Positions 6,219 through 18,508 of a DNA stretch of 32,165 nucleotides are shown here, piece after piece. Source of the stretch: Aequorivita sp. (GTDB taxonomy: Bacteria; Bacteroidota; Bacteroidia; Flavobacteriales; Flavobacteriaceae). The notes beneath the pieces were generated by a model. It made no database searches and was not told where the DNA came from. It saw only the letters and a program-made list of their open reading frames with translations. Location: assembly GCA_002715485.1 (NCBI GenBank), contig PAZL01000067.1, forward strand, positions 1-32,165, given 5' to 3'. Position numbers and translations under genes: made by a program. Position 1 is the stretch's first letter, and each line of letters begins with the position of its first letter.

Positions 6219-7274
6219 ATGGTATTGCTTCATCACTTTGTGCACGGCCTTCTTCTTTTCGCCATTATAACTGGGTGCGCACAAAAGAAGGATACTTCAA
6301 AAGAAAAAATAATTCAAAATTCGACCATTTCCAAAATAAACGGCCTGAGCCTTGTCGCAGCTCCCGATTCCCTTTCAGCTAAAAGCATAGCGTCCTTAAA
6401 GGAAGTCAACGCCAATTATGTTACGGTGATGCCTTTCGGTTTTATTAGAAGTTTAAACCATCCCGAAATAATATACAACCAAGAGCGGCAATGGTTTGGT
6501 GAAACGCGCGAAGGCGTAAGCCAATACGTTGAATTACTTCATAAGAACAAGATAAACGTAATGATGAAACCGCAAATCTGGGTTTGGAATGGTGAGTATA
6601 CGGGCTGGGTTGAAATGGGTTCGGAGACAGATTGGCTTCAACTTGAAGAAACCTATAAAAATTTCATCCTCGATTTTGCAAAAGTTGCAGAGGCAAAAGA
6701 AATTGAAATTTTCTGTATTGGTACCGAGTTGGAAAAATTCATTGAGCACCGTCCTGAATATTGGCGCGAATTGATTACGGAAGTGAAAAAGATTTACAGG
6801 GGAAAATTGACCTATGCCGCAAATTGGGACGAATACAAACGGGTACCGTTTTGGGATGGGTTGGATTATATAGGCGTGGATGCCTATTTCCCGATTTCGG
6901 AAAGTAAAACACCAACGGTGGAAGAGGCAATAGCAGGTTGGAAGCGATGGAAAACAGAATTGAAAGATTTTTCAGAAAAGGAAAACAAAAAAATCCTCTT
7001 TGCGGAATACGGCTACCGAAGTGTCAATCTCAGTGGTAAAGAGCCCTGGAAAAGCGATAGGCAAATGACCTCTGTAAACTTAGAGGCTCAAGCAAATTTA
7101 CTGGAAGGACTCTATCAAACAGTTTGGGAAGAGGATTGGTTCGCGGGTGGCTTCCTGTGGAAATGGTTTATTATAAACGAAAAAGTGGGAGGTACCGATG
7201 ACAATCAGTTTACGCCCCAAAACAAACCGGTACTGCAGCTAATTTCAAAACAGTATTCTACCCAAAAAGAGTAG
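6219..7274 (+). CDS. GH113-like glycoside hydrolase lipoprotein (beta-mannanase type)
   Basis: A 351-residue secreted lipoprotein. The signal peptide ends in the lipobox IITGC (Cys20). The TIM-barrel domain shows strand-end glutamates expected for clan GH-A: E170 in FCIGTE (acid/base candidate) and E263 in FAEYGYRS (nucleophile candidate), plus aromatic +/-1 subsite residues such as W121, W123, W203 and the C-terminal GGFLWKWF. The pattern matches GH113, whose characterised members are endo-beta-1,4-mannanases. No SusC/SusD pair or sugar regulator adjoins it, so this is not a typical polysaccharide utilisation locus; a cell-wall or endogenous glycan target is possible. It is a single plus-strand gene, convergent with the hemerythrin gene at 11 nt. 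Confidence 0.8.
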   Translation: MVLLHHFVHGLLLFAIITGCAQKKDTSKEKIIQNSTISKINGLSLVAAPDSLSAKSIASLKEVNANYVTVMPFGFIRSLNHPEIIYNQERQWFGETREGVSQYVELLHKNKINVMMKPQIWVWNGEYTGWVEMGSETDWLQLEETYKNFILDFAKVAEAKEIEIFCIGTELEKFIEHRPEYWRELITEVKKIYRGKLTYAANWDEYKRVPFWDGLDYIGVDAYFPISESKTPTVEEAIAGWKRWKTELKDFSEKENKKILFAEYGYRSVNLSGKEPWKSDRQMTSVNLEAQANLLEGLYQTVWEEDWFAGGFLWKWFIINEKVGGTDDNQFTPQNKPVLQLISKQYSTQKE

Positions 7275-7806: not shown

Positions 7807-8565
7807 TCAATTCTCAGCAACTTGATTGGAAAATTTTTCTTCTGAAATTTCCGAGTTATTCACTTGCTTTATATGCTTTAAATAATATTTGTACAATTCG
7901 TCGGCATCTGCACCAAACCACCGTTTCACATAAATTGCCCAAAAGTGATATTGCAAGTTCCAAAGGCCTTTTTGTCTGTAAAGGCGCGCTGAGGTGGTTA
8001 TGCATTTTTGGATTACCACAAATTTCTTCCGCTTGTAAAGCTCGTTGATTAAAATATTGTCTTCATAAATTGTGTAGTTTTCATCAAAACCGCCAATTTC
8101 ATCAAAAAGTTTTTTGGTTATAAATTGGCTTTGATCGCCGCCACGACATGCACGCCAGCTAAATTTCGTAAGCCAACCGGCCAGTTTTAGCCACCAATGG
8201 TCGTTATCAAATTTCATTCGGAAACAGCCTGCTGGATTTCCTTTTTCAACTTCAGAAATTATGTATTTGTCGAAATTTTTAGGGGGAAAAGAATCAGCGT
8301 GCAGAAAGTAAAGGATTTTTCCGGAAGCGTTTCGCGACCCTTCATTCATCTGTTTTGCACGGCCTCTCGCGGAAGTGATTAAACTAATTGGTATAGTTTG
8401 GCTTTCAGTAAAGTCTTTGATTAACTTGGGAGTGCCATCGTTGCTTCCACCGTCTACCACAATCAATTCAACTTTGCATTTTTCCGATATATTTTCGGTT
8501 AAATGCTCAAGTAAATTGGTGATGTTTTCGGCTTCGTTTAAAACCGGGATGATGATGGAAAGCAT
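7807..8565 (-). CDS. TIGR04283-type arsenosugar biosynthesis glycosyltransferase
   Basis: A 252-residue GT2 enzyme: IIPVLNEAENI (5-15), VDGGSNDGT (37-45), the family signature SARGRAKQMNEG (65-76) and FLHADS (87-92), then CRGGDQSQFITKKLF and a WxxYxxKRWFGAD-like tail. This set identifies the family that NCBI names arsenosugar biosynthesis glycosyltransferase TIGR04283. It probably adds a sugar or glycerol-type aglycone precursor to the arsenic-bearing ribose, but the exact reaction has not been shown as far as I know. It lies in the same direction as the arsM-arsS genes, 46 nt downstream of the DUF547 gene and separated from the arsM core by the pst genes. Confidence 0.9.
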   Translation of the reverse strand: MLSIIIPVLNEAENITNLLEHLTENISEKCKVELIVVDGGSNDGTPKLIKDFTESQTIPISLITSARGRAKQMNEGSRNASGKILYFLHADSFPPKNFDKYIISEVEKGNPAGCFRMKFDNDHWWLKLAGWLTKFSWRACRGGDQSQFITKKLFDEIGGFDENYTIYEDNILINELYKRKKFVVIQKCITTSARLYRQKGLWNLQYHFWAIYVKRWFGADADELYKYYLKHIKQVNNSEISEEKFSNQVAEN

Positions 8566-8611
8566 TCAATTTTTTTTGGTTGCAGTTTGCAATTTATTGA
8601 TTTTTACAAAA

Positions 8612-9415
8612 TCAATTTTGTTCGTTCAATTCCCAATTATAATTCTTGTAGCTTAAACTTGCTTCGGAATTTATCTTTGTGTTTGCGTATCTATTGATAA
8701 ACCCAATAACATCCTGTTTGCCGTTTACTTTGAAATCTTTTTGGTACCAATCAAAAATAGAGGAAACTTCTGGGGTTTGCGGTGAAATATCGTTTTTATC
8801 GCTATTGATGAATTCTTTGGTGGCGCGATCCAATTGTTCGTTGATTTTTGCAGCTGTGTACGCTTCATCCAAAAGTTTTGGGCAGGAAATGGAAGCACAG
8901 TTTATAGCGAAATGGATACGCGGCTCGTTCATTTTTCGAAGAATTCCGTTTTCAATTCCGCCGAGGGAAAGGTTCTTATTGCCCACGGCTACACGACCTT
9001 TTGTCCAAGCGCCGTCTATATCTTTTATACTTTTTATAGGGTAGTTTTCCAGAATCAATTTTACAGTCGCTGCATTGTAAAGGTTGATGTAATAAGCCAA
9101 TAATTCTTGTACGCTCCAATTATCGCTCGGATTCTTTTCTGCAAGCATTTTAAGATATCCATCCAGTTTGGCTTCATCCTTTTTAAAACCTTTGTAATTT
9201 ACCATTCCTTTGCTGTTTACATATTTTTTCAGCAATTTGTCCCATTGTGAGTGATCAATATTTACTGCAGAGTTTGCGGTGGTTGAGGTGAGGTCGGACT
9301 GGACTTCTTTAGTTGGTTGCCCTTGGCTGCTAACGCCAGCTGCGGAAAGCAGATTGCAACTTTGTAAAAAAAATGCGAAAAAAAATATAGTAGCAAGATT
9401 AAACACAGTTTTCAT
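8612..9415 (-). CDS. DUF547 domain lipoprotein
   Basis: A 267-residue protein with a lipoprotein signal peptide (lipobox FLQSC, Cys20). Beyond a low-complexity Ser/Thr/Gln linker (about 26-50) comes a DUF547 domain with its landmarks: LLAYYINLYNAATVKLIL (about 105-122), IHFAINCASISCP (about 168-180) and the SSIFDWYQKDF segment near the C-terminus. The invariant Cys and His suggest a transglutaminase/papain-like fold, but no activity is established for the family. Its product should sit on the periplasmic face or outer membrane. DUF547 genes recur near TIGR04283-type genes in my recollection, which hints at a shared role. Gaps of 26 and 46 nt to its neighbours fit co-transcription. Confidence 0.85.
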   Translation of the reverse strand: MKTVFNLATIFFFAFFLQSCNLLSAAGVSSQGQPTKEVQSDLTSTTANSAVNIDHSQWDKLLKKYVNSKGMVNYKGFKKDEAKLDGYLKMLAEKNPSDNWSVQELLAYYINLYNAATVKLILENYPIKSIKDIDGAWTKGRVAVGNKNLSLGGIENGILRKMNEPRIHFAINCASISCPKLLDEAYTAAKINEQLDRATKEFINSDKNDISPQTPEVSSIFDWYQKDFKVNGKQDVIGFINRYANTKINSEASLSYKNYNWELNEQN

Positions 9416-9441
9416 TTAGGTATGGTTTTATATTGAAATAA

Positions 9442-10338
9442 TTACGAACTATTTCGACGTTTGGTTTTTATAGGATATAATTCCTGCGAGATAAAACTGG
9501 AAGGAAATTTTTCATCCCCATCAAAGCCTAGCTCAATATCCCTTCCGTCATGCGGAATATGGTTCGTTCTGAAAAGATAGTCCCACACACTTAAACTAAT
9601 CCCAAAATTAACACCGTATTGGGCGTGTTTTGGCAAAACTTTAGCGTGATGCCAAATGTGCATTTTTGGATTGTTGAAAATGTATTTCAAAAAACCATAG
9701 TCCCATCCCAGATTGGCGTGATTTAAATGACCGATGGCGAGCGCAGAGAAATGCACAATTGCAACCGATTCCACATCAAAACCTCCAATTATGGCAAGGG
9801 GAATGTAAAGCAACGATTTGTAAACGACAGGTTCCATCCAATGGTACCGTAGATGTGCCGCAAACCCCATCTCTTTTACCGAATGGTGCAGTTTGTGAAA
9901 ATTCCAAAGAAAAGGGGAGTAGTGTAGCAAACGATGTGTGTTCCACTGCACAAAATCGGTAACCAGAAAGAAAATTAAAAGCCCCAATCCAAAAGGAAGC
10001 GCATCCAAATTGAGAAGCTGAAAATCTGAAAGTTGCAAGCCTGCAATGGCTAAAAGATCATTAAATAATTCAGCTGTGGCGTTTGAGAGGAAAATGAGCA
10101 CGATTAAATTCAATAGAAAAAAATTGAAGAACATATAAAAGGTGTCCAGCCAAAAATCTTTTCGGAAGACTTTTTGGTTTTTTCGCCACGGGAATAAAAG
10201 CTCCAACACCCAGACTACTAAAGAAACAACGATCAGTCCGTAGAAATAGTTTTCCCAATGGAAGTGGGTAATTTCATTCCACAAATAGTTGAAATAGCCT
10301 TGGTAGGAATTTTTGAATATGTAGAAGTATTTTTCCAT
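9442..10338 (-). CDS. Sterol desaturase / fatty acid hydroxylase superfamily membrane protein
   Basis: A 298-residue integral membrane di-iron enzyme. The three histidine clusters are intact: HRLLH (135-139), HKLHH (148-152) and HIWHH (227-231), with extra histidines at 204 and 207. About four membrane helices are visible (around 31-50, 67-86, 115-130 and 175-202). The superfamily includes sterol and fatty acid hydroxylases, carotenoid hydroxylases and alkylglycerol mono-oxygenase; sequence alone does not give the substrate. It lies 41 nt after pstB and 26 nt before the DUF547 gene, inside the arsenosugar directon. A role in making or remodelling an arsenic-containing lipid is an attractive but unproven idea; an unrelated membrane-lipid role is equally possible. 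Confidence 0.87.
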   Translation of the reverse strand: MEKYFYIFKNSYQGYFNYLWNEITHFHWENYFYGLIVVSLVVWVLELLFPWRKNQKVFRKDFWLDTFYMFFNFFLLNLIVLIFLSNATAELFNDLLAIAGLQLSDFQLLNLDALPFGLGLLIFFLVTDFVQWNTHRLLHYSPFLWNFHKLHHSVKEMGFAAHLRYHWMEPVVYKSLLYIPLAIIGGFDVESVAIVHFSALAIGHLNHANLGWDYGFLKYIFNNPKMHIWHHAKVLPKHAQYGVNFGISLSVWDYLFRTNHIPHDGRDIELGFDGDEKFPSSFISQELYPIKTKRRNSS

Positions 10339-10379
10339 CTTTATAGAAAGAGAGTCGTTTTATTAAGGCAGAAATTACT

Positions 10380-11189
10380 TTAACAGTTACAGCTTTCGTT
10401 AAAAAGATATGCTTTGGTTTCTTCTTTTTTAGGTTTTAAAAAGAGGTTGTCTTTTGAGCCACTTTCAATCAATTCTCCTTTGCACATAAAAAATAGCTCA
10501 TCCGCAATGCGCTTTGCTTGGGTTAAATTGTGGGTAACAAGAATAATAGTATAATTTTCTTTTAATTTATTCATCAATTCTTCAATAGCTCGAGTGGAAA
10601 AGGGGTCTAATGAAGAGGTTGGTTCATCCATCAATAAAACTTTCGGTTTTACTGCTAGAGCACGAGCTATGCATAATCGCTGTTGTTGTCCTATTGAAAG
10701 TGCTGAAGCTGGTTCACTGAGTCTTAAATGTACTTCATTCCAAAGAGAAGCTGCTTTTAAATTTTCTTCAACAATAGCATTTTTATCCTTTTTTGATAAT
10801 TTTTTGTGTTGTTGAACCCCAAAAAGAACATTTTCCTGAATGGATTTTGGAAAAATACAGGGACTTTGAAAAACAATTCCAATGTCTTTTCTGAGTTGGG
10901 TAAGATTTTTTTCCTTTTTTAGAATATTATCCTTTTCAAAAAAAATAGAGCCGCTGACTTTTAAATTAATTTCCTCATTATTAATTCGATTAATGCTTCG
11001 TAAAAGGGTAGATTTTCCGCTCCCCGATGGCCCCACAATGCAGTTTACTTTATTTTTAAGAAAGCTCAGGTTAATATTTTTCAACACTAATTGATTTCCG
11101 AAAGAAACATTCAGGTTAGAAATAATAATATCATGTTCTGATACTTTATTATGAATGCTGTTTTCAATAGTTTTTTCTGCTGTAATCAT
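10380..11189 (-). CDS. pstB: Phosphate ABC transporter ATP-binding protein PstB
   Basis: A 269-residue ABC ATPase with Walker A GPSGSGKST (53-61), Q-loop FQSP, signature LSIGQQQRLCIARAL, Walker B VLLMDEPTS followed by SLDP, and the H-loop THN. The spacing INRIN after Walker A and the family length fit PstB, the motor of the phosphate importer. The start ATG overlaps the pstA stop as TAATG, so the four pst genes are translationally coupled. There is no phoU downstream, unlike most complete pst operons; instead a membrane hydroxylase-like gene follows. In the arsenosugar context, arsenate (a phosphate analogue) is a plausible co-substrate or an undesired substrate of this importer. Confidence 0.92.
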   Translation of the reverse strand: MITAEKTIENSIHNKVSEHDIIISNLNVSFGNQLVLKNINLSFLKNKVNCIVGPSGSGKSTLLRSINRINNEEINLKVSGSIFFEKDNILKKEKNLTQLRKDIGIVFQSPCIFPKSIQENVLFGVQQHKKLSKKDKNAIVEENLKAASLWNEVHLRLSEPASALSIGQQQRLCIARALAVKPKVLLMDEPTSSLDPFSTRAIEELMNKLKENYTIILVTHNLTQAKRIADELFFMCKGELIESGSKDNLFLKPKKEETKAYLFNESCNC

Positions 11190-12034
11190 TATTGTTTATT
11201 TTTTGAATATTGCAATCTTCTCACAAAAGCGCTGATGCTAAAAACGAAAACCAATAAGATTAAGACCAAGCTCGTACCCCAAGCATTTTCAAGTGCACTA
11301 GGGTTTGTTGCTTGTTGCGCAAGCGAGAGTATGTGCGTAGGTAAACTTCTTACGGGCTCAAAAAGGCCATTGGGGATTGTTACACCAGAAAATGCGGTGG
11401 CAATAAACATTATCGGGGCCGTTTCGCCTATAGCGCGTGCTAAGCCCAACAGCAAACCTGTAAACCCACCATTAACAGCGCGAGGAAAAATGACTGTTTT
11501 TACCACCTGCCATTTTGTTAAACCCAGCCCGAAAGCATTTTCGCGATATGAATTTGGAATGCTATTAATTGATTGATAGGAAGAAAGGATAATTGTAGGT
11601 AAAATCATTATTGCCAGAATAATCCCTCCAACAAACCAAGAAACGCCTGTCTGTAGCAAATTCACAAAGAAGATAAGACCGAAGATGCCAAATATAATAG
11701 AAGGTATTCCATTAAGGCTATAAATAACTGTATCTGTAAGATTTTGTAAATATGAATTCTTAATATACTCACTTTTATAGATGGCAAACCCCAATGCCAA
11801 TGGAAAACTAATAATCGCAGCGCACGCAGTTAGTAAAACGCTTCCTATAATTTGGTATGCAATTCCTCCCTCTGATCCAAAATTACTGGAGTCTGAAATT
11901 AAAAACTCAAATGAAATAGCTGAGAACCCTTTCCAAAAAAGTACAGTAATTAAAAATAACAAAACGCCAATTGAAATGGTAGCTGCTATACAAACAAAGG
12001 TTTTAAAGGCAATGTTTTGAAGTTTTCTGCTCAT
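11189..12034 (-). CDS. pstA: Phosphate ABC transporter permease PstA
   Basis: A 281-residue permease with about six membrane segments. It has the MetI-type permease core and the cytoplasmic EAA loop, here ENAFGLGLTKWQVVKTVIFP, followed by GLARAIGETAP, the conserved PstA segment that carries the Arg and Glu implicated in phosphate passage in E. coli PstA. Its start overlaps the pstC stop by one base (TAATG), and its stop overlaps the pstB start in the same way. It pairs with PstC to form the membrane channel. Confidence 0.92.
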   Translation of the reverse strand: MSRKLQNIAFKTFVCIAATISIGVLLFLITVLFWKGFSAISFEFLISDSSNFGSEGGIAYQIIGSVLLTACAAIISFPLALGFAIYKSEYIKNSYLQNLTDTVIYSLNGIPSIIFGIFGLIFFVNLLQTGVSWFVGGIILAIMILPTIILSSYQSINSIPNSYRENAFGLGLTKWQVVKTVIFPRAVNGGFTGLLLGLARAIGETAPIMFIATAFSGVTIPNGLFEPVRSLPTHILSLAQQATNPSALENAWGTSLVLILLVFVFSISAFVRRLQYSKNKQ

Positions 12035-12900
12035 TATAAACGTCTTTCTTTTTTGAAGTATAACTGAGTGATGATAGTTACGGTTATTACTATTAGAAAT
12101 AGTAAAAATCCAATGGCGTTAAGTGTGCTAAAGTGCAAGGAGCCAAATGCACTTTCACCTATTTCCCGACCCAATTTTGAAGTCATTGTCTGTCCGGGAT
12201 TAAGAACATTGTAAAACGGTTCAGGAATTCTGTCAATACTCCCAATCAGCAACATTACCGCCATTGTTTCACCCAACGCTCTTCCCAAAGCCAAAAGAAC
12301 AGCTCCCGCAATATCTTTTTTTGCAATGGGCAAAAGTGTTTTGGTAATTGTTTCAAATTGATATAGCCCCAAACCTTTTGAAGCTTCGCGATATTTTTTT
12401 GGAATATTGTGCAATGCATCTTCTATAAGCGTAACAATTGTGGGCAAAATCATTATCGAAAGTAAAATTCCAGCAGTTAAAATTGTTCTTCCCGTGGGTA
12501 ACTCAAAAAATGAAGAAACCCATGCGCTAAAAAATGCAATACCAATAAGCCCATAAATAATTGAGGGGATGCCTGCTAATAATTCTATGGCAGATTTAAT
12601 ATATAATCTATATTTTTCCGGAATAATTTCTGAAATAAATATTGCAGTTAAAATGCCCAATGGAACGGAAATTCCTAAAGCAATAAAAGTTACCGAAACG
12701 GTTCCATATATCATTGAAAGAATTCCAAACTTATCTTTGGAAGGGTTCCATTCCAAAGAAAATAAATCCCAACCAATATTTGCAAAAGCATCGTAACTGC
12801 TTAAAAACAGCACAACGAAAATTATGGCTACAATTGCAATACTTAAATAAGTACTGACCAATACATAACACTTACCTATATTATTTTGCGATGCTGACAT
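12034..12900 (-). CDS. pstC: Phosphate ABC transporter permease PstC
   Basis: A 288-residue inner membrane permease with six predicted helices. The EAA loop reads REASKGLGLYQFETITKTLLP and is followed by LALGRALGETMAVMLL, the hallmark of PstC. It lacks the extended N-terminal region of some PstC proteins, and its start overlaps the last 20 nt of pstS, so translation is probably coupled to the binding protein. It is the heterodimer partner of PstA. Confidence 0.92.
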   Translation of the reverse strand: MSASQNNIGKCYVLVSTYLSIAIVAIIFVVLFLSSYDAFANIGWDLFSLEWNPSKDKFGILSMIYGTVSVTFIALGISVPLGILTAIFISEIIPEKYRLYIKSAIELLAGIPSIIYGLIGIAFFSAWVSSFFELPTGRTILTAGILLSIMILPTIVTLIEDALHNIPKKYREASKGLGLYQFETITKTLLPIAKKDIAGAVLLALGRALGETMAVMLLIGSIDRIPEPFYNVLNPGQTMTSKLGREIGESAFGSLHFSTLNAIGFLLFLIVITVTIITQLYFKKERRL

Positions 12901-13717
12901 ACTCGTTTTTTATAACGATTTTTTGTCCTTCATCGCTTAATATGTAGTCTATAAATTCTTTTGTGATTCCGGTGGGTTCCCCATTTGTTACCAAATCTAA
13001 ATCACGAATAATAGGGAACTTGCCGTTAACAATATTTTCAAGTGTGGGTTCAATTACTTCTCCATTTTCCATAATAATGGCAAGACCTTTCACGTCTTTA
13101 TTCATCCAGGCATTTGATAAAATCCCCAGAGCAGCGTCACTTTGAACGATGGCTGTTTGTTCCTCATTGTTTGCTCCCAATACTAAATCTGCGCCAGCAG
13201 CTTGCGCCTCCTTATCTCCTAAAACAATTTCCATAAAAACGTGGCGCGTGCCTCGGGCTGCTTCTTTATCAATTACCAAAATTTCCTTATCCGGCCCGTT
13301 AAGTTCTTTCCAGTTAGAAATTTCACCGCGATAAATTTTAGCAAGTTGATTTATGGAAAGAGATCTTATACCTGCATCGTAAATTTCTGAAGAAACTACT
13401 GGCACCACTGCGTCTCTTCCAATTGGTGTAATAGTGAATTTTGTTTTGGGATATTGTGAGGTTTCCTTTTCAGTAATATTTCTAGAAATCATTCCAATTT
13501 CTATTTGTTGTGCTCCCACTTGATTAATGCCAACTCCAGATCCCCCTGCATTTACTATAATTTTCACATCTGAATGTGTTTTCATAAATTGTTCTGCCGC
13601 TGTGGATATTACTGGTAATACCGTTGTAGAGCCCGAAGCATTTATTACTTGTTTGTTGTTTTTTGAGCAAGCACTAAATATTAGGGGAATGCTCAATGCC
13701 AATAGAAATTTCTTCAT
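12881..13717 (-). CDS. pstS: Phosphate-binding lipoprotein PstS
   Basis: I place the start at the ATG at 13717 (MKKFLLALSIPL), giving 278 residues with a lipobox SAC at Cys17; the longer reading from a GTG at 13750 would spoil the signal peptide. Phosphate-loop motifs are present: ASGSTTVLPV, NAGGSGVGINQV and the RGTRHVF segment. After the second loop it reads GMISRNITEKE, so the position I align with E. coli PstS Asp56 (in SDAPLSD) is Arg; that Arg-type loop is common in other PstS groups. It follows arsM by 23 nt and leads the pstSCAB genes. It should capture phosphate, and possibly arsenate, in the periplasm. Confidence 0.92.
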   Translation of the reverse strand: MKKFLLALSIPLIFSACSKNNKQVINASGSTTVLPVISTAAEQFMKTHSDVKIIVNAGGSGVGINQVGAQQIEIGMISRNITEKETSQYPKTKFTITPIGRDAVVPVVSSEIYDAGIRSLSINQLAKIYRGEISNWKELNGPDKEILVIDKEAARGTRHVFMEIVLGDKEAQAAGADLVLGANNEEQTAIVQSDAALGILSNAWMNKDVKGLAIIMENGEVIEPTLENIVNGKFPIIRDLDLVTNGEPTGITKEFIDYILSDEGQKIVIKNEYVSIAK

Positions 13718-13740
13718 TTTTATATTTTTAAATTGATTGC

Positions 13741-14709
13741 TTAACAACACCCTCCACCATCATAATGGAATGTAGATTCACTTATAAAAATATCATCTCG
13801 GCCTAAACTTGCCAATGCCCCGGCTGTTTTGTCGCATATCGCAATAGGTTGGTTTTTCAATAGAATATGCCCATTTTTATCATCAAAATGATTTTCTGAA
13901 CCATAGTAAATCGCCGCTTTCCCAGTAAATACACATGGGCCATCCTCTGGCATGGGATCTTTTATAGCCGCAACTTCTATAGATTCAATATATATTAATT
14001 CGTTAGTTGGGTAGTTTTTAGGGTCTAGGATTCTGTAAGGTTTACGCGCGCGAATTTCAATGGTTCCGAAACCAACATCGGTAAGAGCTTTTACATATTC
14101 TGCAATGGGTAAACTACCACTTAGGCAAAGCGCACGTAGGCGCGCATCCTCACGAAGTGTTTCATTCATTTGTTGTTCGCAGGTAGGGTCGCTCATTACC
14201 AATCTGCCGTGAGGTTTTAAAACGCGGTACATTTCCTCAATTGCTTTTTTGAGATCTTCGGCTTTAAAAATATTGAAAAGACAGTTCTGTGCCGCAACAT
14301 CTATTGAATTGTCTTCTACTGGTAGATTCAATGCATCTCCTTTTTTCAATTCCACAAATTCACTTTTAAACCAAGGGTTCAGAGATTCAGCTTCCTTGAA
14401 ATTTTTACGCGAAGCTTCAAGCATTTCATCTACAGTATCCACTCCAACCACACCACCTTTTTGTCTGTTGAAATATGAAAACTGCAACAATTCCATGCCG
14501 CCGCCAACACCTACATACAGCATTTTGGGATTATTTGTAAGATCTCGGGCATTTACGGTGCTACCGCAACCATAATTCATTTCCTGCATTATTTTAGGAA
14601 TTTTAAGCCCTGGAAGCTCCCAAATGGGGTTTGTGGTACAGCATAACCCAACATCTGGGGTTAATGCAGCTTGCTTATATACATCGTTGGTGGTATCTAG
14701 ATAGCTCAT
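13741..14709 (-). CDS. arsM: ArsM-type arsenite S-adenosylmethionine methyltransferase (arsenosugar type)
   Basis: A 322-residue class I methyltransferase. The SAM site reads YVGVGGGMELLQF (65-77) with acidic loops GVDTVDEML (89-97) and KKGDALNLP (122-130). Candidate As(III)-binding cysteines are C48 (NYGCGS), C143 (QNCLFNIF) and C195 (ALCLSGSLP), matching the ArsM three-cysteine scheme; in addition there are vicinal pairs C23-C24 and the extreme C-terminal C321-C322 after GGG. The protein converts arsenite to methylated and dimethylated arsenic, the substrate of ArsS. The variant with this N-terminal GLCCTTNP and terminal GGGCC is the form I associate with arsenosugar clusters. It lies 9 nt after the phosphorylase gene and 23 nt before pstS. 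Confidence 0.92.
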   Translation of the reverse strand: MSYLDTTNDVYKQAALTPDVGLCCTTNPIWELPGLKIPKIMQEMNYGCGSTVNARDLTNNPKMLYVGVGGGMELLQFSYFNRQKGGVVGVDTVDEMLEASRKNFKEAESLNPWFKSEFVELKKGDALNLPVEDNSIDVAAQNCLFNIFKAEDLKKAIEEMYRVLKPHGRLVMSDPTCEQQMNETLREDARLRALCLSGSLPIAEYVKALTDVGFGTIEIRARKPYRILDPKNYPTNELIYIESIEVAAIKDPMPEDGPCVFTGKAAIYYGSENHFDDKNGHILLKNQPIAICDKTAGALASLGRDDIFISESTFHYDGGGCC

Positions 14710-14718
14710 AGTATATTT

Positions 14719-15537
14719 TTAAAGTTGTTTTATCAATTCTGTAAAAAGCGTAATCATGTTTGGTTCCGCCTTTTCCGCAGAAGCAATAATATCGGCAATA
14801 TCAACTGGTTTTAAGTTATCTGGGTCACACTCGTCAGTTAAAACCGAAATTGCTGAAACTGGAAGTTTTAAATGGTTTGCGACAATTATTTCAGGAACGG
14901 TACTCATGCCAACTGCATCGGCCCCAATTATTTTTAAGTATCTGTATTCTGCTCGGGTTTCCAGTTGGGGCCCAACAACACTTGCATAAACACCTTTGTG
15001 AATTTTAATATCATTTTCTGAAGCAATCTGTTCCAATTTTTTATTCATTTCGGAATCATATGGTGCGCTCATATCCACAAATCGCTCGCCCATTTTTTCG
15101 ACGCCACGGAAGGCGAGGGGTGAGTCTCCCTGTAAGTTGATGTGGTCATCAATAAGCATGATTTCACCTTTTTTGAAATTGAGGTTTATTGCTCCGGAAG
15201 CATTGCTCACAAGCAAATGCTTGATTCCCAAAAGGTGCATTACACGCACGGGAAATGTAACATCTCTTAAAGAATAGCCTTCATAAACGTGAAAACGACC
15301 CTGCATCAACACAACTTTTTTCCCTTCCAACGTACCATAAATAAGCTTTCCTTTGTGAAATTCAACGGTTGCTGTTGGAAAATATGGAATGTGGTTATAG
15401 CTTACCTCTGCTTCAATTGAAACATTTTCAATTATCTTTCCGAGTCCAGTACCAAGAATGATTCCTACCTCTGGTTTTTCAAATCCTCTTTGCTTAAGAT
15501 AGGCTACTGCTTCTTCAATATATTTTAAAATGCTCAT
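14719..15537 (-). CDS. Purine nucleoside phosphorylase, trimeric type
   Basis: A 272-residue protein of the PNP/MTAP family: LGTGLG (28-33), GRFHVYEGY (80-88), SNASGAIN (111-118), GPQLETRAEY (189-198), GMSTVPE (210-216) and SVLTDECDPD (231-240). The Glu193 position corresponds to Glu201 of human PNP. The residue I align with human Asn243, which reads 6-oxopurines, is here Asp235, as in MTAP, which reads adenine. The enzyme may therefore phosphorolyse an adenosine-type nucleoside. Located 9 nt upstream of arsM and 1 nt downstream of the TIGR04282 gene, it is well placed to remove adenine from the 5'-deoxy-5'-dimethylarsinoyl-adenosine made by ArsS. General purine salvage remains possible. Confidence 0.9.
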   Translation of the reverse strand: MSILKYIEEAVAYLKQRGFEKPEVGIILGTGLGKIIENVSIEAEVSYNHIPYFPTATVEFHKGKLIYGTLEGKKVVLMQGRFHVYEGYSLRDVTFPVRVMHLLGIKHLLVSNASGAINLNFKKGEIMLIDDHINLQGDSPLAFRGVEKMGERFVDMSAPYDSEMNKKLEQIASENDIKIHKGVYASVVGPQLETRAEYRYLKIIGADAVGMSTVPEIIVANHLKLPVSAISVLTDECDPDNLKPVDIADIIASAEKAEPNMITLFTELIKQL

Positions 15538-15538
15538 T

Positions 15539-16231
15539 TTATAAAAAGTTTTTGTCTAAATAGGGTGGTAAAAATTGCTGAAAAGCATCAATTTCTTTGA
15601 TGTCTTCAAAATAATCTACGTCGTTCCGTTCTTCCAATAAAACGTATTTTTTTTCTTTTAAATTGGCCAGTGTTTCTTCCAAAACGGTGCTCGTGCCCCA
15701 GTTTTTGTTTTTAAATACTTCCGCGTTCAGCTCTTTCATTCCCAGTAAATAGTAGCCGCCATCGGTTGCGGGACCAATTACGAACTGGGTTGTTTGCAAG
15801 GCATCGTAAGCAGCCTCCAAATCTTTTTTGCTCAAATCAAACATATCGCTGCCTATGATAATAGCTTTTTCATATCCCATTCCAAAGATTTCCGAAAATG
15901 CATTTTGCATACGCTCGCCAAGATCGTTTCCATTTTGCAGTTTCTTTCTGAAGAGATCACTATTCCAAATATCGTTTTTATGAATATTTTCAGAATAGAA
16001 AACATATTTATCTACATTTAAGTTCTCGGTAATTTCAACAGTATGTTTCAGTAAAAACGTATAAATTTTCAAGGCGCTTTCATCACCGACTGATTTTGCC
16101 AAACGTGTTTTAACCTTCCCCAGTTCAGGGTTTCGAGTAAAAATTATCAATGCTTTTTTTGATGTGGGAAAGTGGAAGTCGAAAGCCATTTCGTTATCGC
16201 CTTCGGTGTCTTTTGAGGAAAGTAGACCCAT
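15539..16231 (-). CDS. TIGR04282-type arsenosugar biosynthesis glycosyltransferase
   Basis: A 230-residue GT-A-fold protein with FTRNPELGKVKTRL (31-44), GNDLGERMQNAF (101-112), IGSDMFDLS (126-134; most nucleotidyl relatives have GSDCP here) and GPATDGGYYLLG (153-164). These are the marks of the TIGR04282 family, related to CofC-like nucleotidyltransferases and annotated as arsenosugar biosynthesis glycosyltransferase. It may activate or transfer the sugar after adenine loss. I keep the start at 16231 because the MGLLSS opening recurs in relatives I remember; Met15 is an alternative. The gene ends 1 nt before the phosphorylase start. Confidence 0.9.
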   Translation of the reverse strand: MGLLSSKDTEGDNEMAFDFHFPTSKKALIIFTRNPELGKVKTRLAKSVGDESALKIYTFLLKHTVEITENLNVDKYVFYSENIHKNDIWNSDLFRKKLQNGNDLGERMQNAFSEIFGMGYEKAIIIGSDMFDLSKKDLEAAYDALQTTQFVIGPATDGGYYLLGMKELNAEVFKNKNWGTSTVLEETLANLKEKKYVLLEERNDVDYFEDIKEIDAFQQFLPPYLDKNFL

Positions 16232-16262
16232 TTTTAAGTTTTCAGTTATAAATAATTATTTT

Positions 16263-16763
16263 TCAATAAACAGGATTTCCGCTGTGTAAATATTTGCTCC
16301 ATATTTTTGAAAACGTATGAATATTTTCAGTTTCAACTCCTGAAGTATCTACAACTGGATAACCCTTATTTTTCCACTCAAAGATGCCGCCGTAAAGATT
16401 TTTTACGGTAGCAAAACCAGTATTTTTTAATTCTTCAGCTATTTTTTCGGAACGGATTCCAACTGAACAATATACAATTACAGGAATATTTTTATTCAAT
16501 TTCTTGAGTTGTTTTTCATCTAAAGAAAAATTGTTATATCCAACATTTATTGCGGATTTCAGGTGACTTACTTCAAATTCCTCGGGCTCGCGGGCGTCAA
16601 GAATTGTGACGGTATCATTCATCTGAAACATGCGCAATTCATCTACAGAGATGTATGGAACACTGTGGGTGTTGTATTTTTTCAACAATTCATCAAGTGG
16701 CTTTTGACCCACCATGATACCTGAAAAAAGCAAGCAAACTAAGAATGTAAAAAATGTTTTCAT
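16263..16763 (-). CDS. Periplasmic rhodanese-like domain protein
   Basis: Start chosen at the ATG at 16763, giving 166 residues that begin with an N-terminal signal peptide (MKTFFTFLVCLLFSGIMVG); the longer upstream reading overlaps arsS and would bury it. A single rhodanese domain spans about 35-137, with the CH2A-like DAREPEEFEVSHLKSAINVG stretch at 56-75 and the active-site loop C99-S-V-G-I-R-S. The intact Cys implies sulfurtransferase activity, or oxyanion binding. It lies between arsS (29 nt) and the TIGR04282 gene (31 nt). Thio-arsenosugars exist in nature, and arsenate reductases such as Acr2/Cdc25 relatives share this fold, so either sulfur transfer or oxyanion handling in the periplasm is conceivable; neither is shown. 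Confidence 0.85.
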   Translation of the reverse strand: MKTFFTFLVCLLFSGIMVGQKPLDELLKKYNTHSVPYISVDELRMFQMNDTVTILDAREPEEFEVSHLKSAINVGYNNFSLDEKQLKKLNKNIPVIVYCSVGIRSEKIAEELKNTGFATVKNLYGGIFEWKNKGYPVVDTSGVETENIHTFSKIWSKYLHSGNPVY

Positions 16764-16792
16764 GAAATTGTTTAAGCCAAAATAGTCGGTAT

Positions 16793-17869
16793 TTATGTTG
16801 CCGTCGCGCCTTGGCAACTGCTTCCTGCTCCTGCCGTACAACCATAACAATGTTGTGAAATAACAATTTTTCTATCATTCAAAATATCTTCGTTGTATTC
16901 TGAAATGTGCTGGATTTTACTGGCAACCTTCAATTCCAACATTTGGTTGAAATCGCAATCATACAAATAACCATCCCAACTAACTGAAATAGTATTTCGA
17001 CACATTACGTTCTTGACTGCGGCGGGATTGTATGCTTCAACTAATTGATACATATAATCCTCATAATTTTCGGAAGCAATCAGGTAATCCAAGAACCGTG
17101 AAATTGGCAAATTGGTTATTGCAAAAAGATTGTGGAAATGAATCCCAAAATCTTCCAGTAACGCTTTCTTGAAATCTTTTTCCATGCTCGCCTGGTCGCC
17201 CGGCAAAAAAGCACCACTTGGATTATAGACCAAATCCAACCGCAAATTGCTATCGGGCATTCCGTAACCGACGGCATTCAATTCCTGTAATGCTTTAATG
17301 GATTGGTCAAAAACACCCTCACCACGTTGTTTATCAGTTTTTCCACGAGTCCAATGTGGCATGCTGCTAACAACGTGTACGTTGTGACTTTTGAAAAACT
17401 CCGGAAGGTCGTAATATTTTTTATTGGCGCGGATAATCGTCAAGTTACTTCGAACGATAAAATCTTGAATACCAGCTTTACTTGCCTCATCTACAAACCA
17501 ACGGAAATCTGGGTTCATTTCGGGAGCGCCTCCAGTTAAGTCTAACGTATGGGCGCCCGTGTTTCGGATAACCTTTAAACACTGCTCCATTGTTTCGCGC
17601 GTCATTATCTCTTTTCGATCTGGTCCAGCATCTACGTGGCAATGCTCGCAAACCTGATTGCACATATAGCCAACGTTAATTTGAAGAATTTCAAGTTTCT
17701 TCGGTCGCAGCGGAAACTGATCGGTTTCCTTTATTTTTTGTGAAAAAGTAGGAAGCTCGCCATTGGCAAATATGCCGTTGGAGAGTTTTTCCAACTGTTT
17801 ATTTGCGATAGCAAGATCACTGTGACGTTTATGAAGAGATTGTTGTTTTTTCTTTTTTTCCTTAAGCAT
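16793..17869 (-). CDS. arsS: Arsenosugar biosynthesis radical SAM protein ArsS
   Basis: A 358-residue radical SAM enzyme. The cluster motif is C70-x3-C74-x2-C77 in GYMCNQVCEHCHVDAGP, followed by LDLTGGAPEMN. The C-terminal auxiliary-cluster region carries C-R-N near WDGYLYDCDFNQ and ends HCYGCTAGAGSSCQG (C341, C344, C352), the signature of the ArsS/TIGR04167 family. Characterised cyanobacterial ArsS joins a SAM-derived 5'-deoxyadenosyl group to dimethylarsenic. Some family members are selenoproteins; here these positions are ordinary cysteines and I see no in-frame TGA. The N-terminus is very Lys-rich. It is flanked by a 56-aa membrane protein gene (36 nt upstream) and the rhodanese gene (29 nt downstream). 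Confidence 0.95.
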   Translation of the reverse strand: MLKEKKKKQQSLHKRHSDLAIANKQLEKLSNGIFANGELPTFSQKIKETDQFPLRPKKLEILQINVGYMCNQVCEHCHVDAGPDRKEIMTRETMEQCLKVIRNTGAHTLDLTGGAPEMNPDFRWFVDEASKAGIQDFIVRSNLTIIRANKKYYDLPEFFKSHNVHVVSSMPHWTRGKTDKQRGEGVFDQSIKALQELNAVGYGMPDSNLRLDLVYNPSGAFLPGDQASMEKDFKKALLEDFGIHFHNLFAITNLPISRFLDYLIASENYEDYMYQLVEAYNPAAVKNVMCRNTISVSWDGYLYDCDFNQMLELKVASKIQHISEYNEDILNDRKIVISQHCYGCTAGAGSSCQGATAT

Positions 17870-17905
17870 ATAATTTTTTTCGAATGAAAATTCGGGAGAA
17901 TGATT

Positions 17906-18076
17906 TTAAGCAGTTTGCCTTTTCTTGAGAAAGGACATGAGCATCAAACCAATACCAATTCCGAATAAACCTCCCTTTAAAAAATCGGAAAGGTTGATGT
18001 ATTGTGTAAGTATAAATGTTGCTGCATTTACAAACAGACCTAGGGATAGAAGGGTGAAATTGATTTTGTTTTTCAT
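17906..18076 (-). CDS. Small two-helix membrane protein, 56 aa, uncharacterised
   Basis: A short frame, ATG at 18074-18076 and TAA at 17906-17908, encoding 56 residues: MKNKINFTLLSLGLF at the start, hydrophobic segments at about 7-24 and 35-49 with GGLFGIGIGLML in the second, and a basic tail KKRQTA. It has no cysteine or conserved motif I recognise. Spacing of 12 nt from the upstream CMD gene and 36 nt to arsS places it firmly inside the arsenosugar operon, supporting real expression. It could be a small membrane anchor or transporter accessory for the pathway; no function is assigned. Confidence 0.7.
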   Translation of the reverse strand: MKNKINFTLLSLGLFVNAATFILTQYINLSDFLKGGLFGIGIGLMLMSFLKKRQTA

Positions 18077-18088
18077 AGCTGTTCTATT

Positions 18089-18427
18089 TTACATTTCAAG
18101 TTTGTTCACTTTATTCATCATTTGTACGCCGTGCACCAAGCTGGCTCCACTTTTAATAGCTGCTCCTACGTGAACTGCTTCCATCATTTCTTCTTTAGTG
18201 ATCCCGCGCTGTAACCCGTCCTTTGAATAGGCATCAATACAATAAGGGCACATTTCGGTATGGGCAACGGCAAGGGCAATGAGTGATTTTTCACGGGCAG
18301 ATAGTGCGCCTTCTTCAAAGACTTTTCCATAATATTCAAAAAATTTTTCACCGAGCTCTTTGCTCCATTCTGTAATATTTCCAAATCTTTTTAAATCTGC
18401 TGGGTCATAATAATTCTGTGAGGCCAT
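18089..18427 (-). CDS. Arsenosugar-biosynthesis-associated peroxidase-like (CMD/AhpD family) protein
   Basis: A 112-residue all-helical carboxymuconolactone decarboxylase-type protein. The redox pair is C60-P-Y-C63 in HTEMCPYCIDAYSKDG. AhpD-type peroxidases have a His four residues after the second Cys (CxxCxxxH); here that position is Tyr67, so the usual proton relay is missing, with H56 just before the motif. NCBI uses the name arsenosugar biosynthesis-associated peroxidase-like protein for close relatives. It could act as a dithiol reductant or arsenic-thiol carrier in the pathway. It is the first gene of the operon; a candidate promoter lies at 18477-18508. Confidence 0.85.
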   Translation of the reverse strand: MASQNYYDPADLKRFGNITEWSKELGEKFFEYYGKVFEEGALSAREKSLIALAVAHTEMCPYCIDAYSKDGLQRGITKEEMMEAVHVGAAIKSGASLVHGVQMMNKVNKLEM

Positions 18428-18476
18428 AGGAGTGCTTTATTTATAAGTACGAAATTTTAGGTGTTTTGGTTTTCAA

Positions 18477-18508
18477 TAAAGGTAAATATAGGCAAGTAGT
18501 CTTTCAAA
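18477..18508 (-). promoter_or_regulatory. Candidate promoter of the arsenosugar operon
   Basis: Read on the minus strand, TTTG (18508-18505) is followed after 20 nt by TACCTTTA (18484-18477), one mismatch from the Bacteroidota -7 consensus TAnnTTTG. It would start transcription near 18470, giving a leader of roughly 45 nt before the CMD gene. This is a pattern match only; I saw no adjacent ArsR-type operator. Confidence 0.35.

Follow-up and report, generated by a model that had tools for sequence, protein, structure and literature searches.

Among the described systems closest to the locus reported here is the cyanobacterial arsenosugar pathway, which includes ArsM and ArsS and whose steps after ArsS are, to our knowledge, unsolved. 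ArsM is said to yield dimethylarsenic (DMA) and ArsS to add a 5'-deoxyadenosyl group, roles that reportedly go back to the ArsM-DMA study of Xue et al. 2017 and the ArsS study of Cheng et al. 2021. A second point of reference is the arsenic island. Such islands are reported to carry extra pst operons (10 among 21 islands), with pstS1 cited as ArsR-controlled (Li et al. 2013; PMC3834237), and the Pst systems of Halomonas GFAJ-1, one of which lies in its arsenic island, are reported to be phosphate-specific (PMC5930303). Here we report on a run of 14 minus-strand open reading frames (ORFs) that holds arsM, arsS and a pstSCAB importer, in a draft genome (90% complete) of an Aequorivita sp. The window, that is, the whole stretch of DNA analysed, is contig PAZL01000067.1 (G000:C67) at its full length of 32165 bases. 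On balance, we judge it likely that this run is a composite: arsenosugar synthesis would have been built onto a general nucleoside and glycosylation block, joined by a phosphate importer that is probably favoured under arsenic.

The block comprises a rhodanese with a signal-peptide-like start (NF045521; 16263 to 16763, in an ORF that opens at 16850 with TTG; 200 bits, cut-off 145), a CofC-like transferase of TIGR04282 (15539 to 16231; 219 bits, cut-off 134), a purine nucleoside phosphorylase (PNP; NF006054; 14719 to 15537; 342 bits, cut-off 218), a DUF547 lipoprotein (PF04784; 8612 to 9415; 97 bits) and a GT2-type glycosyltransferase of TIGR04283 (7807 to 8565; 233 bits, cut-off 182). Our survey of the family covered 397 Flavobacteriaceae genomes, 288 with ArsS (TIGR04167) over cut-off and 109 arsS-negative, the latter including G292, which carries a match of 1.5e-50 that may be a cut gene. 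Twenty PNP neighbourhoods were compared, 12 of them from arsS-negative genomes (12 of the 19 such genomes in the PNP search). Rhodanese, TIGR04282 and PNP lie together in 8 of these 12; TIGR04283 joins them in 7, and with DUF547 all five genes are present in 5. The eight arsS-positive neighbourhoods all have TIGR04282 with PNP, ArsM follows PNP directly in five, and arsS lies elsewhere. All five arsS-negative genomes scanned for the two transferases hold both over cut-off and lack an arsenosugar-type ArsM, and all 10 of the TIGR04282 and TIGR04283 proteins taken from them pass the “arsenosugar” cut-offs of NCBIfam. Further, TIGR04283 scores over cut-off in 19 of the 80 arsS-negative genomes searched for it (of the 109). 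Thus, arsenosugar synthesis cannot be read from the names of these two families alone. A first-pass annotation of this DNA had counted both among the arsenosugar families; that claim is not supported, because the two, like PNP, rhodanese and DUF547, also occur outside the genomes of arsenosugar makers.

Of 32 genomes searched, some with and some without arsS, 31 have exactly one PNP (none reached the threshold in the other), and the PNP of the run is the only one found in the window's genome. Moreover, the TD of its TDECD motif is common to PNPs inside and outside arsS operons. On these grounds, we reject the idea of a dedicated arsenonucleoside enzyme. Relatives of the DUF547 protein at E 1e-45 occur in 243 of the 288 arsS-positive genomes and in 21 of the 109 arsS-negative ones, the latter tallied by eye. 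All 30 sequences compared keep its Cys173, Cys178 and His168; no sequence match in the Protein Data Bank (PDB) was found at E 1, nor a fold match for its model (pLDDT 88) at E 0.001. A plus-strand GH113-like gene (6219 to 7274; PF22612, 151 bits) converges on the block; the gene is present in 22 of 29 PNP-bearing arsS loci and in 6 of 8 arsS-negative blocks, and many relatives, arsS-bearing or not, show this convergence.

The arsenic genes proper consist of a CMD peroxidase-like protein (TIGR04169; 18089 to 18427; 187 bits, cut-off 120), the radical SAM protein ArsS (TIGR04167; 16793 to 17869; 446 bits, cut-off 300) and an ArsM of the arsenosugar type (NF038099; 13741 to 14709; 568 bits, cut-off 400). 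With both ArsM and ArsS over their NCBIfam cut-offs, these are predicted arsenosugar synthesis genes. Such an ArsM passes the cut-off in 11 of 12 arsS-positive genomes and in none of 22 arsS-negative ones (Fisher p 4e-8). The exception, G027 of the window's own genus, keeps arsS and has PNP and the hydroxylase 44 nt apart (L063:8190-9948). We compared 40 arsS loci, a non-random sample since they were drawn from the top of a score-ordered list. CMD is found in 38, PNP and TIGR04282 in 29 each, ArsM in 28, DUF547 in 26, TIGR04283 in 24, rhodanese in 23, the GH113-like gene in 22, the hydroxylase in 16 and PstS in 1. The 11 loci without PNP are small CMD-arsS loci, nine by one shared gene set and two by another. 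Between CMD and arsS in the window lies a membrane ORF of 56 aa (17906 to 18076), an ORF call with a relative in 1 of the 40 loci (L062).

One gene beyond this set follows ArsS closely. The fatty-acid-hydroxylase-family protein (9442 to 10338; PF04116, 88 bits) has orthologues of at least 400 bits in 112 of the 288 arsS-positive genomes and in none of the 109 arsS-negative ones (Fisher p 1e-19, kinship ignored); a check by eye of 24 genomes without an ArsS listing gave no hydroxylase of 400 bits. Where both positions were listed (57 genomes), the two genes lie within 12 kb in 50 and within 30 kb in 54; one pair is 1.1 Mb apart and two are on different contigs. Relatives below 400 bits are mostly unlinked: this holds for 18 of the 19 whose genome has a listed arsS, the other (G143) being 4 kb from that gene. 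Ten histidines (H135, H139, H148, H151, H152, H204, H207, H227, H230 and H231) are conserved in 19 of 19 sequences, giving the protein the conserved histidine clusters of the di-iron fatty-acid hydroxylases. It is the sole gene in the run that would point to a lipid step. These counts divide the first-pass proposal of a single, wider pathway: the hydroxylase is tied to arsS, but the block stands without arsenic genes. They divide in the same way its test of whether the accessory genes occur independently of arsS, as DUF547 does, and so does the wider Pst clade described below (68 of 74 loci lack arsS in the stretch compared, many on short contigs), but the hydroxylase orthologue does not.

The importer lies between arsM and the hydroxylase as four subunits in a row: PstS (12881 to 13717, in an ORF that opens at 13750 with GTG; TIGR02136, 188 bits, cut-off 206.6), PstC (12034 to 12900; TIGR02138, 260 bits, cut-off 196), PstA (11189 to 12034; TIGR00974, 231 bits, cut-off 193) and PstB (10380 to 11189; TIGR00972, 318 bits, cut-off 343). 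That PstSCAB is complete is borne out in its four subunits and in the scores of the two permeases, but PstS and PstB fall slightly short of their cut-offs. The description of it as the operon's own importer is likewise half right, to judge from sequence comparison: pst is in the operon and its clade recurs beside arsM or arsR, but it is rare, being absent from 39 of the 40 arsS loci. A PstS of at least 60% identity is found in 4 of the 397 family genomes, including this one, and in 2 of the 28 genomes of the genus (which also contains Aequorivita soesokkakensis); ArsS is present in 27 of these 28, and a canonical PstS in 3. Locus L104 coincides in its coordinates with the match in G405, a genome of this genus, and was therefore taken as G405. 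Elsewhere in the genus, the slot is seen without pst, as arsM-hydroxylase in L062 and PNP-hydroxylase in L063.

In the flanks, the window and L062 share 82-98% DNA identity, which falls to 76-83% across TIGR04282 and PNP. The arsM gene of the window is nearer to that of L104 (83-84%) than to that of L062 (76-81%), contrary to most flanking genes, and the ArsM proteins agree (97% identity to L104, 92% to L062). The arsM-pst stretch therefore has a history unlike that of its flanks; most simply, the window's lineage would have gained arsM and pst jointly by recombination. The PstS proteins of six arsS-linked loci (window, L104, L105, L106, L107 and L131) form one clade with support 100/99, and all six genes directly follow arsM. 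In four of these loci, arsM and the hydroxylase flank the cassette; in the near-identical L105 and L131, no hydroxylase stands behind it. L107 is from Leptobacterium, the same genome as L044. On gene trees from which L044 and L131 were left out (five pst-bearing rows, four for the hydroxylase), the pst-bearing operons are scattered, forcing at least 2 changes on the arsM tree, at least 3 each on the hydroxylase and PNP trees and at least 4 on the arsS tree. Transfer, repeated loss, or both must thus have occurred.

Beyond the family, we scanned contigs with a PstS alignment and took the best 80 of 138 confirmed loci. Seventy-two of these (L104-L175), with the window and two further family genomes, form one clade on a branch of 1.71, drawn from Bacteroidota, Planctomycetota, Nitrospinota, Nitrospirota, Pseudomonadota and others. 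In its ligand loop, the clade reads KExxRGTRH where other PstS proteins mostly read SGT, with Arg replacing Ser; SGT is the canonical phosphate-binding loop. The clade rows in this comparison include one canonical PstS (L098_b). We rejected RGTRHVFM, the motif that labels the clade, as a proven invariant, for in 59 of the 72 rows it is the only one of the two scan patterns present. For the same reason, the only unbiased witnesses to the loop are the four family genomes found by similarity, without a motif search, and all four, the window included, have it. The best fold match of the PstS model (pLDDT 87.5) is 4gd5, solved with phosphate (TM 0.80/0.91).

Part of this clade has arsenic genes as neighbours. 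An arsM or arsR gene lies within 2.8 kb of 14 of 74 clade loci and of none of 28 other Pst loci (Fisher 0.01), and within 10.5 kb of 29 of 74 against none of 28 (Fisher 1.5e-5); kinship is ignored in both, and L099 was excluded because its PstS is identical to that of L121. The pst genes share an operon with arsM in Flavobacteriaceae, Nitrospirota and a planctomycete, and arsR stands directly upstream of them in Nitrospirota, a Myxococcota and an anammox genome. Several other arrangements were seen in passing. In Scalindua rubra (L116:8971-11163), a pstSCAB of this clade, a GT2 gene and a DUF3179 gene lie upstream of a fusion between a radical SAM/SPASM protein and ArsM, which is truncated where the contig ends; a comparable long ArsM-bearing protein, scanned in its ArsM part, follows pst at L108:17745-19574. 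These two are possible candidates for a new organoarsenical locus. A planctomycete contig (L169:3-4999) has in a row ArsM, two DUF3179-cluster ORFs, a TIGR04282-like gene, a clade PstS and a DUF547-like gene. In Nitrospinota (L138-L175), a TPR protein, a 426-aa protein and DUF3179 often come after the pst genes of this clade; the one 426-aa member scanned gave no Pfam match at E 1e-5. The clade PstS of G288 (L121/L099) sits beside PiT, and no pstCAB was seen in that stretch.

The run extends from 18427 to 7807. From CMD onward, its intergenic gaps are 12, 36, 25 (29 from ATG), 31, 1, 9, 23, -20, -1, -1, 41, 26 and 46 nt, which agrees with the spacing first described (mostly 1-46 nt or overlapping). 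All of the genes named at that time are in place in one minus-strand run, and family scans of 13 of the 14 ORFs (the 56-aa ORF lay outside them) confirm the names. The bounds then given, 7807 and 18508, are right at the lower end; the upper lies 81 nt beyond the first start codon. Matches resembling sigma-70 promoters and terminators were no more frequent than in shuffled sequence, and the run is consequently a putative single transcript only; a flavobacterial promoter consensus gave 3 matches against 2.6 expected. The only Rfam element in the window is tRNA, outside the run. A search of 78 plasmid records gave no match of at least 60% identity. No arsenite oxidase (aioBA) appeared among the 20 window ORFs that were family-scanned, no search aimed at it having been made.

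We therefore picture the run as follows. The rhodanese, TIGR04282, the cell's PNP, DUF547 and TIGR04283 would have an arsenic-independent job in Flavobacteriaceae, as the presence of the block without arsS and the arsenosugar ArsM suggests. The arsenic genes would fill two slots in it, with CMD and ArsS upstream and with ArsM, the hydroxylase and, here, PstSCAB between PNP and DUF547. If ArsM forms dimethylarsenic and ArsS adds the 5'-deoxyadenosyl group, as in the literature on their families, PNP would probably cleave the arsenonucleoside, TIGR04282 activate the product and TIGR04283 transfer it, giving an arsenoriboside. The hydroxylase, with orthologues only alongside arsS, would probably act on a membrane-bound product. 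PstSCAB would most likely take up phosphate selectively when arsenate is present, such that phosphate enters while ArsM and ArsS handle arsenic; the published arsenic islands and the reportedly phosphate-specific Pst of GFAJ-1 suggest this role.

A number of observations weigh against this picture. The enzyme steps after ArsS are ones that we infer. Four of the 12 arsS-negative neighbourhoods have PNP only, with no block, and 11 of 40 arsS loci do not carry the block in cis. The arsS-negative genomes may themselves have lost arsS and ArsM, with the block lingering. The identity mosaic has no direction: L062 may be the genome in which this stretch was replaced, and its lack of pst may be a loss. 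The Flavobacteriaceae operons themselves account for six of the 14 loci with arsM or arsR close by, leaving 8 of 68 elsewhere (in Nitrospirota, one Myxococcota, one anammox genome and one planctomycete). The control was not taxon-matched, since the 28 loci are 20 of this family and 8 of Bacillota/Fusobacteriota and most clade loci belong to other phyla. Within 10.5 kb, 45 of 74 clade loci show neither arsM nor arsR, many of them on short contigs, and some members sit in phosphate settings, with Porin_O_P beside L115 and PiT near the PstS of G059 and G288.

Were the run instead one dedicated operon, every gene would serve a single pathway that starts with PstSCAB taking up arsenate and ends in an arsenosugar, possibly bound to lipid. 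The tight co-directional layout, the arsS-restricted hydroxylase and the presence of DUF547 in 26 and TIGR04283 in 24 of the 29 PNP-bearing arsS loci are what one would then expect, but TIGR04282, PNP, DUF547 and TIGR04283 also keep company where arsS and the arsenosugar ArsM are absent, and 39 of 40 arsS loci do without pst; we regard this explanation as quite unlikely. The co-occurrence might still be discounted if the TIGR04282/TIGR04283 block of arsS-negative genomes were a relic of a lost arsenosugar pathway. Such loss is plausible because 288 of 397 family genomes have arsS. Yet in four genera, arsS is absent from every sampled genome and TIGR04283 persists at 219-244 bits (cut-off 182; three genomes in g2 and two in each of g203, g227 and g104), and a relic thus seems improbable to us.

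The importer invites two further explanations. The clade PstSCAB could bring in arsenate, or another arsenic oxyanion, to feed ArsM, as its rebuilt loop (in all four of the unbiased genomes) and its operonic place beside arsM in three groups would allow. ArsR-controlled genes switch on under arsenic stress, however, and the arsR genes directly upstream in Nitrospirota, one Myxococcota and one anammox genome would turn an arsenate importer on at just that time. Further, the best fold matches are phosphate-binding proteins, the top one phosphate-bound, and the GFAJ-1 systems are reported to be phosphate-specific (PMC5930303). This role is consequently doubtful, although we give it some weight. 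Alternatively, pst might be a neutral passenger, the genome's only high-affinity phosphate importer, placed in the operon by chance and co-expressed with it. No second PstS was found in the draft genome at E 1e-10, canonical PstS is scarce in the genus, and PiT, which is present in this genome, is also counted on that side. Chance placement is nevertheless hard to square with a subclade in which six of six members directly follow arsM, or with the arsM and arsR neighbours of other clade members, and we hold it to be somewhat unlikely. A composite run with a phosphate-selective importer remains our preferred explanation. Extending it, we would only tentatively suggest that the multi-phylum PstSCAB clade, with its rebuilt ligand loop, is specialised for arsenic conditions, whether by importing or by strictly excluding arsenate, and has been traded among arsenic-metabolite loci, namely the arsenosugar operons of Flavobacteriaceae, the arsM-arsR operons of Nitrospirota and, in anammox bacteria, loci with a radical SAM-ArsM fusion. 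Arsenosugar synthesis would then be a late addition, borrowing a general nucleoside-to-glycoside block in which the transferases bear the name “arsenosugar” by association only.

These results bear on three matters. Where TIGR04282 or TIGR04283 is used to count arsenosugar makers, the number may be an overestimate, because both families occur without ArsS and the arsenosugar ArsM. For the steps after ArsS, the hydroxylase is singled out as a gene whose orthologues go only with ArsS. Finally, the Pst clade bears on how cells discriminate phosphate from arsenate. In the literature searched, we found no description of the hydroxylase-arsS link or of the Pst clade, and its titles and abstract openings named no DUF547, TIGR04283 or Pst importer in an arsenosugar operon.

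Set beside its closest counterparts, the run shares ArsM and ArsS, both over cut-off, with the cyanobacterial pathway and adds to them the PNP/TIGR04282/DUF547/TIGR04283 block, the hydroxylase and pst, a comparison made with the pathway rather than directly with cyanobacterial loci. The hydroxylase belongs to the same superfamily as the ornithine-lipid hydroxylase OlsE (NF052566), but at 84.7 bits is far below that family's cut-off of 475, and its orthologue group is found only in arsS-positive genomes. PstSCAB has the fold and the four subunits of the phosphate importer whose PstS is of the TIGR02136 type (4gd5), from which the PstS of the window differs in its identity (about 31%), its KExxRGTRH loop and its separate, long-branched clade. 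Like the reported arsenic islands (PMC3834237, PMC5930303), the window has pstSCAB beside arsenic genes and signs of horizontal spread: pst adjoins arsM, and the identity mosaic and the conflict among trees are signs of transfer. The arsenic genes of those islands are for arsenite oxidase or ars efflux, whereas the pst genes of the window sit in an ArsM-ArsS operon.

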